From NCBI GenBank assembly GCA_016933025.1, contig JAFGBT010000014.1, positions 1 through 64,000 on the forward strand: a DNA stretch of 64,000 bases. Reading direction: 5' to 3'. Shown piece by piece: positions 15,427 through 24,668 of this stretch; within the stretch, counting starts at the first letter, position 1; each line of letters opens with the position of its first letter. This DNA comes from Spirochaetota bacterium (lineage in GTDB: Bacteria; Spirochaetota; UBA4802; UBA5550). Position numbers and translations under genes: made by a program. Below the pieces are notes generated by a model, which was given only the letters and a program-made list of their open reading frames with translations, did not search any database and was not told the origin of the DNA.

Positions 15427-16719
15427 TTGAAAATCGGTCTTATCAGTCCGGTCGGAGTGACCACGAGTGATGTGCTTTTAAGCCATATTTTCGATGAAAA
15501 TAGGGACTTGAATAATTATATCCAATCATTTACTCGTGCCATTAGTTCTGGTCTGTTGGTTATTGCGTCTTTGACCCCAGAGGACATAGAAATCAAATTA
15601 ATTGATGATAATTTCGATCGTATAGACTATGATGAACGCTTTGATTTGATCGGAATATCTGCTATGACTCATCAGTCGACTCGTGCATATGAAATTGCCA
15701 ATGAGTTTAAGAAGCGCGGTGTGCCTGTCGTAATTGGAGGAATGCACGCGACAGTATTGCCAAACGAAGTGAAGGAACACTGCGACTCGGTATTCATCGG
15801 CGAGGCGGAAGATACCTGGCCTCTGTTTATTCAGGATTTTAAAAATGGAAGAATATCGGAATTTTACAAATCGGAACGCCTCATCGACATGTCTAAAACG
15901 CCAATTCCGCGATATGATCTCCTAAAAAAGGAAAAATATAAAGTAATATGGCTGCAAACGAGCAGGGGCTGTCCGCATGATTGCGAGTTTTGCGGTTCTT
16001 CAAGGGTATATGGATATAAATACAGGCATAAAACGATCGACCAGGTGATTGATGAATTACATGTTATACATGCCATATGGCCTGACGCACGCATCAATTT
16101 CGCAGATGACAATCTACTGGTGGATAGATCGTTCTCGAAAAAATTATTCACGGAATTAAAGAAGTTTAATTTTAGATGGTTTGCCCAGACTGACATATCT
16201 ATCGCTGAAGACGAGGAATTTCTTAAAGAGTTGAAAGATGCGGGTTGTACGACGCTTTTCATCGGTTTTGAGAGTATATCAGAAAATAGCTTGATGACGA
16301 TAAATAAAAACAAATGGAAATTGAAGCATCTGAAAAATTATCCCCAGGCGATAGAAAACGTCCAGTCAAAAGGGATCGGCATTGTCGGTGCTTTTATCAT
16401 AGGTCTGGATGGTGATACGAAAGAGACCTTTCAGGAGCTCATAGATTTTATTGTCAATAATCGTATCTATACGCCCCAGATTACAATATTGACGCCTCTC
16501 CCGGGCACCAGGCTGTACGAACGGCTAGAAAATGAAAATAGACTTTTACATATACCGTGGAATCACTATACATTTACCGAGGTCAGTTATATTCCAAAAA
16601 ATATGTCGGCTGTTGAATTACAGAACGGTCTGTATGAAATATACGAAAAGGTATACAATAAAGAAGTGAGGGCTGCAGTATTAAGGCATTTTAAAAATAT
16701 CTTTAAAGAAATCAATTAA
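15427..16719 (+). CDS. B12-binding-domain radical SAM protein
   Basis: This protein of about 430 residues has an N-terminal cobalamin-binding Rossmann domain (GISAMTHQSTRAYEIA, VVIGGMHATVLP, FIGEAEDTW) and a radical SAM core with SRGCPHDCEFC. The family does methylations, ring closures and other radical chemistry on unactivated carbons; the reaction here cannot be read from sequence. Two in-frame TTG starts exist. TTG 15427 is chosen because GCGAGG (15415-15420) is then 6 bp upstream; for TTG 15421 the spacing would be zero. It follows the ACP gene by 23 bp and is probably in one operon with it. The gene is AT-rich relative to the region upstream of 13.5 kb. Confidence 0.88.
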   Translation: MKIGLISPVGVTTSDVLLSHIFDENRDLNNYIQSFTRAISSGLLVIASLTPEDIEIKLIDDNFDRIDYDERFDLIGISAMTHQSTRAYEIANEFKKRGVPVVIGGMHATVLPNEVKEHCDSVFIGEAEDTWPLFIQDFKNGRISEFYKSERLIDMSKTPIPRYDLLKKEKYKVIWLQTSRGCPHDCEFCGSSRVYGYKYRHKTIDQVIDELHVIHAIWPDARINFADDNLLVDRSFSKKLFTELKKFNFRWFAQTDISIAEDEEFLKELKDAGCTTLFIGFESISENSLMTINKNKWKLKHLKNYPQAIENVQSKGIGIVGAFIIGLDGDTKETFQELIDFIVNNRIYTPQITILTPLPGTRLYERLENENRLLHIPWNHYTFTEVSYIPKNMSAVELQNGLYEIYEKVYNKEVRAAVLRHFKNIFKEIN

Positions 16720-16721
16720 TA

Positions 16722-16749
16722 TTGCAATATTGCTGAAATATAGTATACT
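16722..16749 (+). promoter_or_regulatory. Candidate promoter before the kinase/HD-GYP gene
   Basis: TTGCAA (16722-16727) and TATACT (16744-16749) are separated by 16 bp, about 40 bp upstream of the ATG at 16790. It would allow transcription of the kinase separately from the biosynthetic genes. Motif-based only. Confidence 0.35.
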
Positions 16750-16789
16750 CAATTTAATTCGTATTTAATATGATTATCAGGATCGAGAG

Positions 16790-19345
16790 ATGGTCAATGC
16801 CAATTTATTGGAGCAGTACAAAGCAGAAACGCTGAATAGATGCAACAAAATGGTCGCTTTTGTATCGCTATTTGTTTTATTCGGCAATTTTTTCTACTGG
16901 ATATTGGATTATATGATGGATAGTTCGAGAATTATCCAATTCATTATCGTACGGTCACCTCTCAGTCTAATCATGCTTATTATATTTCTGATAGCAAAAA
17001 CTAAATTTGGCTATAAATATTCAATGTATCTGGCGGTAGCGATTGCGATTATTACCTCGTTTTCGATAACGATACTTATACATATGACCGGCGGTTCTTC
17101 GAGCCCCTATTATGCCGGTTTGTTGATCGTCCTCTTCGCTCTGTGCATCTGGTTGCCGATAACCTTTAAGCTCGGCGTTATCTCGGCTGTAACGATATTT
17201 TTAATGTATAATGTGCCGTTTCTCGCCGCTAACAGCGTAACGGATTGGTCAATCTTCATCAGCAATAACTATTTCATCATTTTTATTTTTTTCCTCTCGG
17301 TTACTTCTTTAAAGTTTTATAATGACATCAGGTTCAATGAATTTAAATCGAGGTATGAACTGCAGCAATCCAACAACGACCTGGAGATGCTCACCGATGA
17401 GCTCGCCGAGTCCAATGAAAAGCTCCTGATCCACGACCGGCTTAAGACCGAGTTCTTCACCAACGTGAGCCACGAGCTCAGAACGCCGCTCACCCTTATA
17501 CTGGCGCCCCTTCCGAACCTTATCGAGGAATGGCAAAAGATGCTCCCCGAGGTGGTGAAGGATACGCTGATAATGATGCAGGCCAACGGTCTGCGGCTCC
17601 TCAAACAGATCAACAATCTTCTGGATTTCGCCAAGCTGGAAGCGGGCGGGATGCGTCTCAATATACAGGAGGTGGACCTCATCGATTTCTGCAAAACGAT
17701 CATCGCCTCGGTGCAGCCGCTCGCGTCGAGTCAGGGACTCAAGCTCTACTTCCAGTACCAGATGGAGGACGAGATCCGGGTGCTGATCGACACCGGGCAG
17801 TTCGAGAAGGTGGTGATGAACCTCCTGCACAACGCCATCAAGTTCACGGGCGAGGGGGGGCGGATTACTCTGCTCCTTGACGATCGTGAGAATGATGTGG
17901 AGCTCACGGTAGAGGATACCGGCGTCGGCATTCCTATCGAAATGCTGGAGACGATTTTCGACCGCTTCGCGCAGGTGGACGGATCGTCAACGAGGAGCCA
18001 GGAGGGGACCGGTCTCGGCCTGTCGCTTGCCCGGGAGATTGTCGAGCTGCATGGAGGGTCAATACGCGCGGAGAGCGTGCAGGGGAAGGGGTCCCGGTTT
18101 ATCGTCCATATAAAGAAGGGCGGGGAGCATATCAGCGATGATATACGTGATCGCCGAAAGGCGACGCAGCCAGTGCAGTACAAGAAACGCGCCAGCGATG
18201 TCGAGGGCCTGAAGCTCAGCGATGTGGTGAGCAACTACCGTAACCTGCAGCTCATAGACCTCGAGCAGAAGATTGACCTGGACAACTACGACCACCGGAG
18301 CGGCTCCCATGACTTTACCATCCTGGTGGTAGACGACAATCCGGATATCCTCAGGCTGATGCATTTCCTCCTGAACGATGAATTCGACCTGCTCCTCTGC
18401 AGATCCGGAAAGGAAGGACTGGCGTTTCTCAGGGAGCATAACCCGGACCTGATTGTCTGTGACGTGATGATGCCCGAAATGGACGGATATACGTTTTGCC
18501 GGGAGGTCAAAAATGACCAGAATTACAAGCACATACCGATCATCCTGGTAACCGCCCGGGCCGGGTCGGAAATGCTTGTTCAGGGGATCGATTCGGGAGC
18601 CAATGACTATGTCGCGAAGCCGTTTGACGCGGCCGAACTCAAGGCGAGGATCCGCTCCCTCCTCAGGACGAGGAACGTTGAGGAGGCGCTTGCCCTGGCC
18701 AACTACAATCTGAAAATAAGAACGGATGACCTGGTCGACCGGCAGAGGTCGCTTCTCCACTCCACGGTCAAGTCCCTGGTCTCAACCATTGAGGCAAAGG
18801 ACAACTATACCAAGGACCATTCATTCCGCGTGAGCAGGTACTCTCTTGCCATAGCCAGGAAGATGGGTTTTGCCGAACATGAGCTCAACGATCTTGAGCT
18901 GGCAGCTCTGCTCCATGACGTCGGCAAGATAGCCGTGCCGGAAGAAATCCTTCATTATGAAGGGAAGCTGAGCGAGCAGGAATTCAGCTATATCAAGAAC
19001 CACCCTTTGCATGGCGCAATGATAATAAAGCCGATCACTGAATTCAAGAACGTCGCATCAATTGTTCTCGCCCATCATGAGCATTATAACGGGAAGGGAT
19101 ATCCTTATGCGCTCTACAAGGATGATATACCGATAGGTGCCCGTGTTATGGCCATTGCCGACGCCTACGATGCGATGACATCTGAGCGGCCCTATCGCTC
19201 GGCCCTTTCCCATAACTTCACTGTCAAGGAAATCGTTCGCTGTTCGGGCACGCAATTTGATCCGGGCATTGTCGATGTGTTCCTTGGAATCCATGAACTC
19301 CTGAGTGAAATCAGGAATAATTCCACCCAGGCACCTGAAAACTAG
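16790..19345 (+). CDS. Membrane hybrid histidine kinase - receiver - HD-GYP phosphodiesterase
   Basis: This 851-residue signalling protein has about six membrane spans (residues 20-175) with no large periplasmic domain, then a short coiled coil. The kinase core follows: H-box FFTNVSHELRTPL (His228), N-box NLLHNAIKF (Asn347), G-boxes DTGVG (376-380) and GTGLGLS. A receiver domain (about 508-625) has DD515-516, phosphoacceptor Asp558 in CDVMMPEMDG and Lys610. A C-terminal HD-GYP domain (about 655-845) has LLHDVGK (His709-Asp710) and HHEHYNGKGYP (762-772), the residues of active c-di-GMP phosphodiesterases. Signal input should pass by phosphorylation to c-di-GMP breakdown. It follows the radical SAM gene by 70 bp and opposes the PilZ protein functionally. 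The membrane part is AT-rich while the rest is GC-rich. Confidence 0.93.
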   Translation: MVNANLLEQYKAETLNRCNKMVAFVSLFVLFGNFFYWILDYMMDSSRIIQFIIVRSPLSLIMLIIFLIAKTKFGYKYSMYLAVAIAIITSFSITILIHMTGGSSSPYYAGLLIVLFALCIWLPITFKLGVISAVTIFLMYNVPFLAANSVTDWSIFISNNYFIIFIFFLSVTSLKFYNDIRFNEFKSRYELQQSNNDLEMLTDELAESNEKLLIHDRLKTEFFTNVSHELRTPLTLILAPLPNLIEEWQKMLPEVVKDTLIMMQANGLRLLKQINNLLDFAKLEAGGMRLNIQEVDLIDFCKTIIASVQPLASSQGLKLYFQYQMEDEIRVLIDTGQFEKVVMNLLHNAIKFTGEGGRITLLLDDRENDVELTVEDTGVGIPIEMLETIFDRFAQVDGSSTRSQEGTGLGLSLAREIVELHGGSIRAESVQGKGSRFIVHIKKGGEHISDDIRDRRKATQPVQYKKRASDVEGLKLSDVVSNYRNLQLIDLEQKIDLDNYDHRSGSHDFTILVVDDNPDILRLMHFLLNDEFDLLLCRSGKEGLAFLREHNPDLIVCDVMMPEMDGYTFCREVKNDQNYKHIPIILVTARAGSEMLVQGIDSGANDYVAKPFDAAELKARIRSLLRTRNVEEALALANYNLKIRTDDLVDRQRSLLHSTVKSLVSTIEAKDNYTKDHSFRVSRYSLAIARKMGFAEHELNDLELAALLHDVGKIAVPEEILHYEGKLSEQEFSYIKNHPLHGAMIIKPITEFKNVASIVLAHHEHYNGKGYPYALYKDDIPIGARVMAIADAYDAMTSERPYRSALSHNFTVKEIVRCSGTQFDPGIVDVFLGIHELLSEIRNNSTQAPEN

Positions 19346-21372: not shown

Positions 21373-21716
21373 ATTAATATTATTTTTTCAAAGGCTGTAT
21401 CATACCATTATATTTGCACGGATTTTATCGATTGCCCGCAGCAAATGCCGATCGGTATGTTCCACGGCTGCCAATGAAGGAACTATCATCTGCTCGAAGA
21501 TAAACTCACCGGAATCGGTTCTGATGGAAGAAGTAATTATGCATAAATTTTAATCCTCGAGCTATCTCAGGAGGATCAATAATTGGGTATGTATTTAAGA
21601 ATTTTAACATATAATTAATTATTTTGTTGACAAATACTCTGTTTCTTACTATTTTGAATTAAATAGAAGGCTTTTTTATAGTTATGAAGCATGTCGATCA
21701 TTGTTTGTAATGCGAG
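21373..21716. other. Intergenic region between xseB and the DsrE-like gene
   Basis: This is a 344-bp AT-rich gap. The only clear element is a promoter candidate at 21627-21655. A short purine-rich GGAGGATCAATAATTG near 21569 could be a ribosome binding site before a TTG, but no frame of useful length follows. No RNA gene was recognised. Confidence 0.5.
21627..21655 (+). promoter_or_regulatory. Candidate sigma-70 promoter of the DsrE/TusA/DsrMK-like genes
   Basis: A perfect -35 TTGACA (21627-21632) is followed after 17 bp by TATTTT (21650-21655). It lies 61 bp upstream of the ATG of the first gene of the sulfur module, in an AT-rich stretch. Confidence 0.5.
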
Positions 21717-22262
21717 GTGACTATGGATGTACATCAGGCAATTGAATCATTAAAAAACGAAATGGGCCGTATGCGTGATGAAAGAAAGAACAAGCTTTCC
21801 ATGGTTGTGTTCAGCGGAGACCTTGACAAGCTTCTTGCCGCATTCATCATTGCGACTGGAGCGGCTGCCATGGGACTCGAAGTCGTTCAGTTTTTTACCT
21901 TCTGGGCCACACCCGCGCTTCGGGATAAAAAGAAAAAAGGCAGGGGAAAAAATCTATTCGGTAAGATGTTCGGATTCATGCTCCCGAAGGGGGCAGGAAA
22001 GGTCAAGCTTTCCAAAATGCATATGGGCGGCATGGGAACCGCCATGATAAAACATCTGATGAAAAAGAAAAAAGTCGCTTCCCTTCAGGAGCTTATCAAC
22101 CTGTCCGCTGAAATGGGGGTCAGGATTTACATATGCGAGATGTCCATGGACCTGATGGGATTCAAACAGGAGGAGATGATCGATTATCCGGGCCGGGAAT
22201 TCGTCGGCGTGGCCAAGTTCCTCGAGGAAGCCGGCGACAGCAAGATTCAGCTTTTTATATAA
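21717..22262 (+). CDS. DsrE/DsrF-like protein (DrsE_2 type)
   Basis: This 181-residue protein resembles the peroxiredoxin-like DsrE family: LSMVVFSGDLDKLLAAFIIATGAAAMGLEV near the N-terminus, then TFWATPALR, a basic segment with FGFMLPKG and KLSKMHMGGMG, and VRIYICEMSMDLMGF with one Cys. In related proteins the Cys in this last region carries sulfur as a persulfide. It opens a four-gene set with TusA, a DsrM-like cytochrome and a DsrK-like Fe-S protein, which supports a role in sulfur transfer. It is probably cytoplasmic and membrane-associated through its partners. Confidence 0.82.
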   Translation: MTMDVHQAIESLKNEMGRMRDERKNKLSMVVFSGDLDKLLAAFIIATGAAAMGLEVVQFFTFWATPALRDKKKKGRGKNLFGKMFGFMLPKGAGKVKLSKMHMGGMGTAMIKHLMKKKKVASLQELINLSAEMGVRIYICEMSMDLMGFKQEEMIDYPGREFVGVAKFLEEAGDSKIQLFI

Positions 22263-22368
22263 CGCGGTCGCTACCCGAAAATCATTGCTGATGCGGCAGG
22301 TGGCAAAATTATTATTAATTACTTGCAAAAATATCTGATGTGCGGTAAATAAAAAAAAGGAGATTAAT

Positions 22369-22611
22369 ATGAGTGATGCAATAAAACCCGACATTACCAT
22401 GGATCTGAAGGGCATGGCGTGCCCCATGCCGGTGGTTAAAGTGAGCCAACAGATCAAGAAGATGCAAATAGGCCAGGTTCTCGCCGCCGAAACAACAGAC
22501 CCGGGGGCTTATGCCGATTTCCCGGCCTGGGCAAAAAGCACCGGTAACGAGATCATAAGTACGGATAAAAAAGAGAACGTTACCACATTTTATATCAAAA
22601 AAATAAAATAA
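22369..22611 (+). CDS. TusA-family sulfur carrier protein
   Basis: This 80-residue protein has the family signature DLKGMACPMPVVK, with the sulfur-carrying Cys18 in CPMP. The later TDPGAYADFPAWAKSTGNEI matches the TusA fold. AAGGAG precedes the ATG at good spacing. TusA proteins hand sulfane sulfur between partners. Here the neighbouring DsrE-like protein and DsrMK-like membrane redox pair make dissimilatory or storage sulfur metabolism more likely than tRNA thiolation, though the substrate is unknown. Confidence 0.92.
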   Translation: MSDAIKPDITMDLKGMACPMPVVKVSQQIKKMQIGQVLAAETTDPGAYADFPAWAKSTGNEIISTDKKENVTTFYIKKIK

Positions 22612-22682
22612 ATGCCTGCTTGAATCAGGAAATCGTGATATTCTGTTCCTTTCATAATATTATTCTATTCAAGGATTGAACT

Positions 22683-23405
22683 ATGTGGAGCAAGGTATTT
22701 TATTTTACCATGGTGCCCATGGTGTATGCCGCCGTTGCAATATTCATCGGCGGCCTTATATTTAAATTAGCGGTGGTGCTGTTTTCAAAAAGATTCAAGG
22801 GATCGCTGGCGACGTATCCCAAACGCCTGCCGAGGCCAGTGGGCGTCGCAGTTGAGGCCCTTGCGGTACCTTCCGCTTTTAAAAAAGACAAGGTCTTCTG
22901 GCTTTTTATTCTCGCCTTTCATATATCATTTTTTCTTCTCTTCATCGGCCACCTTGAGCTGATACGGGAATTCAAGTGGATCCAGCTTATTCCGCATGAA
23001 GTATTTCTGGGAGCGGGAGCTGTCGGCATTGTCCTCATTATATCGGTCCTCTATTTCCTCTTCCGGAGGTTCAGGTCCCCCTGGCGGGAAATTTCTGTAC
23101 CGGAGGATTTTTTCATTCTGATTCTTCTCTTCCTGACAATGTTCCTCGGGAGCCATCTTCACCTATCGGCACGGTTCTACGCCGGTGGAGGCGCGTTCGA
23201 CATACCGATAGAAGCGTACCGTGAATACCTTTCGAGCCTGCTCGCCCTGAAGCCGGTGGTACCTGATGGAATCGCCTATTCGCCCCACTATGTGCTGGTC
23301 GCGTTGCATATATTTCTCGCGAACCTGGTACTGATCTTGATCCCCTTTTCCAAGGTCGTTCACATGGTGTTCGCATTCCTGTCACTGGATTTAAAGAGGA
23401 AATAA
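22683..23405 (+). CDS. DsrM/NarI-like membrane cytochrome b subunit
   Basis: This 240-residue integral membrane protein has about five spans (near 13-35, 72-92, 108-128, 140-162 and 203-232). Histidines within or next to spans (His80, His90, His158, His160, His209, His227) are candidate heme b ligands, as in the NarI/DsrM family. It probably passes electrons between the quinone pool and the Fe-S protein encoded 3 bp downstream. The tight spacing suggests a two-subunit complex. Family-level call; individual heme ligands are inferred. Confidence 0.82.
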   Translation: MWSKVFYFTMVPMVYAAVAIFIGGLIFKLAVVLFSKRFKGSLATYPKRLPRPVGVAVEALAVPSAFKKDKVFWLFILAFHISFFLLFIGHLELIREFKWIQLIPHEVFLGAGAVGIVLIISVLYFLFRRFRSPWREISVPEDFFILILLFLTMFLGSHLHLSARFYAGGGAFDIPIEAYREYLSSLLALKPVVPDGIAYSPHYVLVALHIFLANLVLILIPFSKVVHMVFAFLSLDLKRK

Positions 23406-23408
23406 GAA

Positions 23409-24668
23409 ATGGAAAAAGAAAAAATACAGGAACTCAAAAGCATACTGAAATCAAGGCTGAACAGGCCCCTGCGCTATTACACGGATACCTGCACGCGCTG
23501 CGGGATATGCTATGACTCCTGTCATGCCTTTTACGGAATACCAAAAAAGGAATATTCGCCGGTTGGTCGCGCCGAAGTCGTGCGAAAGCTATTAAAGAAA
23601 TACACCAGGCCGTCCGGATTTCTTTTCCCCTATTGGGGCGATGCGATGAAGTTAGGGGACGCGGTGCTTGACCAGGTATTCGAGGCGGCATGGTCGTGCA
23701 CGGGATGCCGGCGGTGCATGGTTAACTGCCCTTTCGGCATTGATACCGGCCAGATAATGGGCGTGGCAAAGCACCTCCTCATAGAGAATGGGACTGCACC
23801 GGAGGAGTTGATCATGCTGGCCGACGCGGCAGTTGAAAAAGGAAAAAGCATCGACCAGTTCAAAGAAGGATACAAACAGGTGATTCATGACCTGGAAAAG
23901 GAGGTGCAGAAAAAGCTCAATCTTCCCTCCCCGGACGGACTGATACCGATGGAAAAGCAGGGGGCCGATATCCTGTACGTCGGGCTTGCCGGTGCACATT
24001 CGATCGTAAACCCCGCCATTATATTTAATGCAGCGAAGGCGAACTGGACCCTCAGCTTTTTTGAGGCCGTGAATTTCGGTTTCTTTGCCGGAGACCCGGA
24101 CAAGACGAACTTTATCGCGCAGCGCATAATAAAGGAGGCAATGGCGCTGAACGTCAAGGAAGTGGTGATCGTCGAATGCGGCACTGCATTCAGGATTCTG
24201 CGAGCCCTCATGGGGAAGCTGCCCTTCAGGGTTTCGAGCATCGTGGAGGTCATCCACCGGTACGTCGAGGAAGGAAAGGTCAAGTTGAATAAGAATTCGG
24301 TGTCCGAGCCGGTGACATACCATGATCCGTGCCAGCTCGGGAGGAACGGGGGAGTTTTTGAAGAACCCAGGGCGGTAATACGGAAGATCGTATCCGATTA
24401 CCGGGAAATGTCTCCAACCAGGGAACAGAACTGGTGCTGCGGCGGCGGCGGAGGCCTGGTCGCCCTGGACAATGAGGACTTCAGGATCAAGACCGGGAAG
24501 GCCAAGAAGGACCAGATCGTTGCGACCGGCGCGAAAATCGTTGTCACAGCGTGCGAGAATTGCGTTTCCCAGCTGAAGACCATCAAAGGCGGCTACGGCC
24601 TGGACATCGAGGTCAAGTATCTGAGCGAGCTGGTTTGCGAAAACCTCGCGATTCAAAGCAGTGAATAA
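23409..24668 (+). CDS. DsrK/HdrD-like Fe-S protein with two 4Fe-4S motifs and CCG domains
   Basis: This 419-residue Fe-S protein has a ferredoxin region with CTRCGICYDSC (C28, C31, C34, C38) and CTGCRRCMVNC (C97, C100, C103, C107). The C-terminal half has CCG-type motifs: YHDPCQLGR, then NWCCGGGGGL and CENC. CCG motifs in HdrB/HdrD and DsrK hold a catalytic [4Fe-4S] centre for disulfide or persulfide chemistry. With the DsrM-like subunit just upstream it should form a membrane-bound heterodisulfide-reductase-like complex. No dsrAB sulfite reductase is present in the window, so the partner or substrate is unknown. Confidence 0.87.
   Translation: MEKEKIQELKSILKSRLNRPLRYYTDTCTRCGICYDSCHAFYGIPKKEYSPVGRAEVVRKLLKKYTRPSGFLFPYWGDAMKLGDAVLDQVFEAAWSCTGCRRCMVNCPFGIDTGQIMGVAKHLLIENGTAPEELIMLADAAVEKGKSIDQFKEGYKQVIHDLEKEVQKKLNLPSPDGLIPMEKQGADILYVGLAGAHSIVNPAIIFNAAKANWTLSFFEAVNFGFFAGDPDKTNFIAQRIIKEAMALNVKEVVIVECGTAFRILRALMGKLPFRVSSIVEVIHRYVEEGKVKLNKNSVSEPVTYHDPCQLGRNGGVFEEPRAVIRKIVSDYREMSPTREQNWCCGGGGGLVALDNEDFRIKTGKAKKDQIVATGAKIVVTACENCVSQLKTIKGGYGLDIEVKYLSELVCENLAIQSSE

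Follow-up and report, generated by a model that had tools for sequence, protein, structure and literature searches.

A conserved gene block joining DsrE- and TusA-type carriers to a membrane cytochrome b and a CCG iron-sulfur protein: a candidate oxidoreductase for protein-bound sulfane sulfur

Several described systems resemble, each in part, the gene block reported here. DsrMK(JOP) combines a NarI-like di-haem cytochrome b subunit with a CCG iron-sulfur subunit, and the accessible part of PMC10504309 notes dsrMK without dsrJOP as well as a few assemblies with a basal DsrMK but no DsrAB, with no mention in that part of tusA or dsrE beside them. Among enzymes of the heterodisulfide reductase (Hdr) type, the catalytic iron of HdrB is bridged by Cys81 and Cys234, which substrate binding displaces; in mycobacterial EtfD, a fused single chain with one b haem, His583 caps the noncubane cluster and renders it non-catalytic (PMC13083937, in excerpt). 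Regarding the carriers, sulfur exchange between TusA and a DsrE-type protein has precedent in vitro (PMC13293266 and PMC4175335, in excerpt), the YTD cluster (yedE-tusA-dsrE-chp, DsrEFH type II) occurs in anaerobes in a dissimilatory sulfur context (PMC13293266, PMC13047784 and PMC12998232, in excerpt) and canonical DsrE2 is described with two transmembrane helices (PMC12998232, in excerpt). Here we consider a block of four genes, E-T-M-K, at positions 21,717 to 24,668 of a 64,000-nucleotide (nt) stretch from a Spirochaetota bacterium (assembly GCA_016933025.1, contig JAFGBT010000014.1, positions 1 to 64,000 of the forward strand), the whole of which is called the window.

We read this block, also referred to as the module, as encoding a membrane-bound oxidoreductase that would act on protein-bound sulfane sulfur independently of DsrC, usually in the reductive direction, and we put the probability of that reading at about one half (0.52). 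E stands for the DsrE_2-family gene, T for tusA, M for the cytochrome b gene and K for the gene of the CCG iron-sulfur protein. The features are arranged as follows.

21627..21682, + strand: promoter-like sites TTGACA-17-TATTTT and TTGAAT-17-TATAGT, from a consensus scan only
21723..22262 (listed from GTG 21717), + strand: E, DsrE_2-family sulfur carrier; PF13686 at 7e-51; predicted persulfide cysteine C140, GTG numbering
22369..22611, + strand: T, TusA-family sulfur carrier; PF01206 at 1.5e-22; CPxP motif with C18
22683..23405, + strand: M, membrane cytochrome b of the NarI/DsrM/TmcC type, predicted di-haem; PF02665 Nitrate_red_gam at 7e-12; H80, H90, H209, H227
23409..24668, + strand: K, CCG iron-sulfur protein; PF02754 CCG at 6.6e-15 and Fer4 dicluster domains

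The open reading frames (21717-22262, 22369-22611, 22683-23405 and 23409-24668, all on the + strand) are co-directional and separated by gaps of 106, 71 and 3 nt. Such close spacing, along with the Pfam matches, upholds what had been read from the letters before any database search, namely that a sulfur-carrier pair stands next to an Hdr-type membrane pair. ATG 21723 is the more likely start of E, because GTG 21717 sits in a GAGGTG stretch resembling a ribosome site and for the proteins of most relatives the alignment begins at 'MD'.

Retention of E-T-M-K across several phyla is more than chance. Searching with E returned a match in 18 of 30 relatives, own genome included. All 12 other genomes with an E of at least 71% identity keep the E-T-M-K order on one strand (K is broken in two of them), and in another five genomes E is distant or fragmentary and M-K is missing. 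Since the window's flanking genes are not shared outside the genus in these relatives, E-T-M-K is the unit. A scan of named genomes made with K alone, E and T playing no part in it, gave 561 loci, and the best-scoring 80 form our locus sample, which overlaps in records with the 12 close relatives. Of the 66 sampled loci whose sequence reaches 2300 nt or more upstream of K, 59 show E-T-M-K; the other seven comprise one E-M-T-K (L052), three T-M-K (L069, L082, L100) and three M-K (L113, L114, L117). Six of the 14 loci with less upstream sequence are still complete. The neighbourhood on which the sequence-only reading was staked is therefore conserved, both in close relatives and in loci fetched with K. 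By name, the host records fall in Spirochaetota, in Thermodesulfobacteriota and other Deltaproteobacteria, and in Bacillota, Chloroflexota and Candidatus Eisenbacteria, with one from Candidatus Aminicenantes; almost all of them are metagenome-assembled genomes (MAGs), so an isolated odd placement may reflect mis-binning. Within its own phylum the distribution is narrow, with a module-type K in 23 of 296 sampled genomes (two in broken pieces), all in the same order as the window's host. The records from Desulfobacterota, Bacillota, Chloroflexota and Eisenbacteria rule out a spirochaete-specific system.

K is a clade of its own beside DsrK, TmcB and HmcF. It scores 243.1 bits against the DsrK model NF045796 (243.8 in the genome search; cut-off 400), 214.1 against TmcB NF045724 (cut-off 735) and 203.2 against HmcF NF045711 (cut-off 750). 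M likewise reaches 43.7 bits against DsrM NF038037 (cut-off 300) and 51 against TmcC (cut-off 240), and no NCBIfam model fits either protein over its cut-off. In a K-family tree of 119 rows, 84 module rows group together (Shimodaira-Hasegawa-like approximate likelihood ratio test 98), apart from 14 canonical DsrK rows, a second DsrK-like paralogue, TmcB and HmcF; the tree was made by a quick method with a midpoint root, its long branches were flagged by the program, and rows below 330 amino acids as well as duplicates had been dropped. The protein labelled 'DsrK-like' from its letters is not DsrK, considering the sub-threshold score, the separate clade and a cysteine at position 385 where DsrK has Asp.

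Residue conservation was counted after removing duplicates and fragments (K below 380 amino acids or 400 bits, E below 120 or 100 bits, T below 55 or 60 bits, M below 180 or 100 bits), and the K alignment excludes two relatives with a broken K (L022, L029). Fourteen of the 15 cysteines in the window's K are invariant in 81/81 rows, the exception being C410. C28, C31, C34 and C38 along with C97, C100, C103 and C107 are predicted to hold cubane [4Fe-4S] clusters, and C308, C343, C344, C382 and C385 a noncubane one; C257 is also invariant. Loss of the CCG cysteines in relatives, which would have told against the original interpretation, is thus seen in none of these rows. Position 385, the last CCG residue, is Cys in 81/81 module rows vs Asp in 14/14 canonical DsrK, and Cys too in TmcB, HmcF and the second DsrK-like paralogue. 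Position 259 is Thr in 75/81 module rows and His in 6/81, compared with His in 27/27 rows of DsrK, the second paralogue, TmcB and HmcF. For these two positions rows below 390 amino acids were dropped and duplicates removed, leaving 81 module and 14 DsrK rows (86 and 15 with duplicates). L113, L114 and L117 have Met instead of Asn at the adjacent position 384.

C385 aligns with Cys234, the second cysteine of the HdrB CX2C, and T259 lines up in a phmmer alignment with the capping His583 of EtfD. This suggests that module K has Hdr-type open-site residues for one noncubane cluster, its other CCG domain being reduced to C257. A His at position 259 would not be decisive alone, since DsrK has it and is nevertheless thought to be catalytic. 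The AlphaFold model of K (mean predicted local distance difference test, pLDDT, 91), which like that of M was compared with PDB chains only, has M. smegmatis EtfD as its nearest solved structure (Z 24.4, root-mean-square deviation 3.5, 375 aligned) and also matches HdrB (Z 17.8-19.2, 223-224 aligned).

M passes PF02665 at 45.8 bits (gathering score 22.9), and H80, H90, H209 and H227 are invariant in 79 rows where alignable (H80 with one gap). Its AlphaFold model (pLDDT 85), predicted from an alignment of 38 of 39 rows that left out the fragmentary M of L052, best matches E. coli NarI (1q16_C; Z 16.0, root-mean-square deviation 3.6, 196 aligned), followed by the membrane part of EtfD (Z 12.1). 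The histidine spacings of 10 and 18 presumably equal those of NarI H56/H66 and H187/H205, and the four invariant histidines fit a predicted pair of b haems.

Both carriers are secure at the level of the family and fall short of the named proteins. E matches PF13686 DrsE_2 at 172.6 bits (gathering score 25) and the canonical DsrE2 model NF047629 at 86.8 (cut-off 210), its nearest solved relative being 3pnx, a 'putative sulfurtransferase dsrE' (3e-31). T matches PF01206 at 79.6 bits (gathering score 28.6) and the TusA equivalog NF001423 at 45.7 (cut-off 78). C140 of E is kept in 71/71 rows having a residue there (72 aligned), as are C18, P19 and P21 of T in 75/75 (76 aligned).

What the hosts contain bears directly on the choice of partner. 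A dsrA profile was searched in 60 genomes and DsrK and DsrC in 42, all chosen from the loci gathered here; the dsrA model also matches eight of 14 controls weakly, so only matches over cut-off were counted. In the window's own genome (completeness 91.6%) there is no dsrA over cut-off and no DsrC, and a DsrK-family search at E 1e-20 matches nothing but module K. The absence of sulfite reductase first claimed for the window thus extends, as far as dsrA is concerned, to the whole genome. It does not extend to the genus: two of four genus-mates tested (G003, G005) carry dsrA over cut-off, DsrC and canonical DsrK besides the module, which rules out a lineage without sulfite reductase, and relatives G015, G022 and G026 do likewise. 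Dsr proteins of Spirochaetes are mentioned in the accessible part of PMC10504309. In G005, G022 and G026, all of the same order, dsrA is followed by a dsrB-like gene, DsrC, a gene that looks DsrN-like by eye and canonical DsrK (L118, L122, L124), and these genomes additionally hold the second DsrK-like paralogue, at about 315-320 bits.

Across the wider set, dsrA is over cut-off in 23/60 genomes, and in 26/42 module genomes neither dsrA nor DsrC nor canonical DsrK is over cut-off; 21 of these 26 have module K as their sole DsrK-family match at the threshold used. Because genes can go missing from incomplete MAGs, an absence in any one genome weighs little, and the argument is the pattern over 26 genomes. 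In those hosts DsrC therefore cannot be the partner of K, and its presence in other genomes does not show its use by the module. Given that the module coexists with Dsr but is independent of it, the carriers encoded beside K are its natural partners, and TusA and DsrE are likely to be the substrate carriers.

From these observations we infer the following sequence of events. Sulfane sulfur would be borne in the cytoplasm as a cysteine persulfide on DsrE C140 and TusA C18, and either carrier would dock on K, whose single Hdr-type noncubane cluster would cleave the S-S bond and release sulfide. Electrons would arrive from menaquinol or another membrane donor, passing via the two b haems of M and the two cubane clusters of K. 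Such a machine could turn persulfide sulfur into H2S as respiration, as an electron sink or for polysulfide clearance. Reduction of sulfane sulfur is probably the direction, because most hosts without Dsr are, going by what we take to be their biology, fermenters or strict anaerobes with no route to oxidise sulfur further.

The main rival keeps the machine and turns it around: sulfide or persulfide would be oxidised onto TusA/DsrE with electrons flowing through the b haems to quinone, an Hdr-type sulfide oxidase feeding sulfur trafficking. We hold this to be rather unlikely, though it is chiefly in sulfur oxidisers that DsrE/TusA relays have been described (PMC3397948 and PMC4175335, in excerpt) and many sampled hosts are Desulfobacterota, for which a capacity for sulfur oxidation has been proposed (PMC13293266, in excerpt). 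The 26 of 42 hosts without dsrA and DsrC would have no reverse Dsr (rDsr) sink for the sulfur, and the hosts include Rectinema, Clostridiales and Dehalococcoidia, which we take to be fermentative or strictly anaerobic. The BigR/SqrR-like repressors among the neighbours described below do lean toward oxidation, in so far as we take such repressors to control sulfide-oxidation genes. A relay for assimilation, tRNA thiolation or cofactor maturation, in which M-K feeds electrons to a biosynthetic step, strikes us as improbable. E. coli TusA is, as we understand it, a sulfur carrier for tRNA thiolation and the molybdenum cofactor, and in several hosts none of the other dissimilatory sulfur genes tested is present; but no biosynthetic family stands out beside the block in the 80 loci, where the recurrent neighbours are MarR, ArsR and a FadL-type porin, the distribution is patchy in the phylum sample, and thiolation alone requires no membrane di-haem cytochrome.

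It is very improbable, in our estimate, that M-K is an EtfD/EMO-like oxidoreductase between electron-transferring flavoprotein and quinone with DsrE and TusA as mere neighbours. The structural matches of K and of M to EtfD given above speak for it, as do the FadD-like gene and two 2-hydroxyacyl-CoA dehydratase-like genes downstream in the window; those acyl-CoA genes, however, are found in 0/17 loci fetched from relatives, among them 12 with the block. Separate polypeptides for M and K, Thr at the capping position in 75/81 rows, bridging Cys kept in 81/81 and dsrE plus tusA accompanying M-K in 59/66 loci led us to reject identity as an EtfD homologue.

Several observations weigh against a reductive, DsrC-independent persulfide enzyme fed by TusA and DsrE. 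The direction is not fixed by the sequences. Three loci (L113, L114, L117) have a K-clade gene with M and no dsrE or tusA, meaning that K can exist without the carriers, and close relatives are over-represented because the best 80 of 561 loci were sampled. The six module rows with His259 form two early-branching groups (L095/L100 and L105/L108/L111/L115), for which reason Thr259 is probably derived within the clade. MarR, ArsR and FadL genes are absent at the window's own locus. Electron supply is a further difficulty: the own genome has no menaquinone-synthesis marker (MqnA/D, MqnE, MenB, MenD) above its cut-off; for MqnA/D, 6/26 module genomes give a strong match and two more a weak one, and the own genus gives none. 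MqnE agrees with MqnA/D in the order (29 genomes searched), MenB is over cut-off in 0/26 genomes and MenD in 0/23. Four genomes with canonical DsrMK (G003, G005, G015, G048), each covered by all of these marker searches, fail the same tests, so absence of markers is not absence of quinone; UbiA, matched in 41/42 genomes, is non-specific, all 14 controls matching too. The proposed link to the quinone pool accordingly stays unproven, with the same caveat about the markers.

Compared with DsrMK, the block shares the pairing of a NarI-like di-haem b subunit with a CCG subunit and, except for the last CCG residue, the 14 aligned K cysteines; it differs in needing neither DsrC nor DsrAB, in having dsrE-tusA within its operon and in the clade and in residues 385 and, mostly, 259 of K. 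TmcBC and HmcEF have the same fold family and complete CCG cysteine set, but their scores and clades set them apart, and His is at position 259 in 8/8 TmcB/HmcF rows. With HdrDE/HdrB the block has in common the complete C-terminal CCG motif, with its cysteine aligning to bridging Cys234, and the HdrB fold; in contrast, K has one complete CCG motif rather than two, and thus one noncubane cluster instead of HdrB's two because the first CCG domain is degenerate and keeps only C257, and the partners are tusA and dsrE. EtfD, which ranks first among solved structures for K and next to NarI for M, is a fused chain with one b haem and a capped, non-catalytic cluster (PMC13083937, in excerpt), whereas the block has two chains, four haem histidines and, in 75/81 K, no capping His.

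The YTD cluster likewise joins TusA to a DsrE-superfamily protein in anaerobes, but where that cluster has a transporter and DsrF/H-like proteins, the block has a membrane haem/iron-sulfur pair. There is no yedE or yeeE in the block, and in a PF04143 search of 26 genomes the single match of the own genome lies on contig C44 and the module on C27; the YTD identity was rejected for lack of an adjacent transporter. In the relative G024, the contig that bears the module (C29) also carries, some 4 kb away, a YeeE/YedE-like (PF04143) pair that is split (15846-16918). The Rhd-TusA-DsrE2 relay also has TusA beside a DsrE_2-family protein; the block is without rhodanese, and its E is below the DsrE2 equivalog cut-off.

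DsrMK, TmcBC/HmcEF, HdrDE, EtfD and YTD each diverge from the block in at least one feature tested for membership, and the interpretation as a DsrMK/Hdr-type membrane CCG enzyme stands. It is possible, and we propose it tentatively, that membrane CCG enzymes of the Dsr/Tmc/Hdr type have one more branch, represented by the block, whose carried substrate would be TusA/DsrE in place of DsrC or the heterodisulfide of coenzymes M and B (CoM/CoB). It would be a persulfide reductase (or sulfide oxidase) widespread in anaerobes, through which bacteria lacking sulfite reductase could link sulfane sulfur with electron transfer at the membrane. We found no description of E-T-M-K in the open-access literature searched; most subscription papers lie outside it, so the block may be described there.

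If the proposal is true, there would be a membrane route for sulfane sulfur in genomes without dsrAB, DsrC or canonical DsrK, and marker-gene surveys would overlook some of the sulfur cycling by anaerobes of the Spirochaetota, Desulfobacterota, Bacillota, Chloroflexota and other groups. A mechanistic question is touched as well, namely the capabilities of one Hdr-type noncubane cluster on its own, for which the module K clade is a natural comparison set because the bridging Cys is kept (Asp in DsrK) and the His of the examined relatives is mostly missing. One curated K model would make K annotatable.

Clustering the open reading frames of the 80 loci revealed the recurrent neighbours. In 29 loci E is immediately preceded by a MarR-family gene, three of whose cysteines are invariant in 29/29, and in 12 there is an ArsR-family gene adjoining the block, with a C-terminal CxxxC in 8/12. 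The one ArsR tested, that of L061, has the biofilm repressor BigR as its best PDB match (3e-10) and also matched 13ct/6o8l, which we take to be SqrR; its N-terminal Cys stands, by eye, about three residues from that of BigR, making the sensor site similar, not the same. These regulators hint at thiol or persulfide control and count in favour of our preferred reading. In 21 of the 74 loci with enough sequence beyond K, a gene for a FadL/OmpP1-type outer-membrane protein comes right after K (PF03349 in the two cases tested), which hints at the import of some hydrophobic substance such as, perhaps, S8. Four Deltaproteobacteria-type records (L068 9477-10908, L070, L073, L090) have small genes close to the module that look DsrE/F/H-like by eye and are perhaps DsrEFH type II; the trio beside L068 gave no Pfam match.

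In the window itself, xseA/xseB lie upstream of the block and an AMP-binding (FadD-like) gene lies downstream of K, beyond a gap. The two adjoining genes of the 2-hydroxyacyl-CoA dehydratase/benzoyl-CoA reductase family (PF06050; 27223-29547, - strand) are below every equivalog cut-off. The promoter announced at the front of the block is borne out in so far as TTGACA-17-TATTTT at 21627-21655 matches the consensus at 10/12 positions; it is a predicted site only and one of 17 in an AT-rich leader, for which shuffles of the scanned stretch gave 7.0 +/- 2.9.

Elsewhere, the broken K genes (L022 10348-11395 in G001, a stretch missing; L029 6696-7951 in G024, a frame change) stand beside an E, T and M that look intact, and either decay or assembly error may be at work. 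The Candidatus Aminicenantes MAG contig (L049) has the block at 71% K identity and falls beside spirochaete rows in the tree, by transfer or mis-binning. Further K-like genes adjoin K in L113 and L114. Finally, in three relatives from the order (L033-L035; G029, G020, G025) a distant E lies inside frames of 815-829 amino acids beside TusA and without M-K, perhaps a fused sulfurtransferase.

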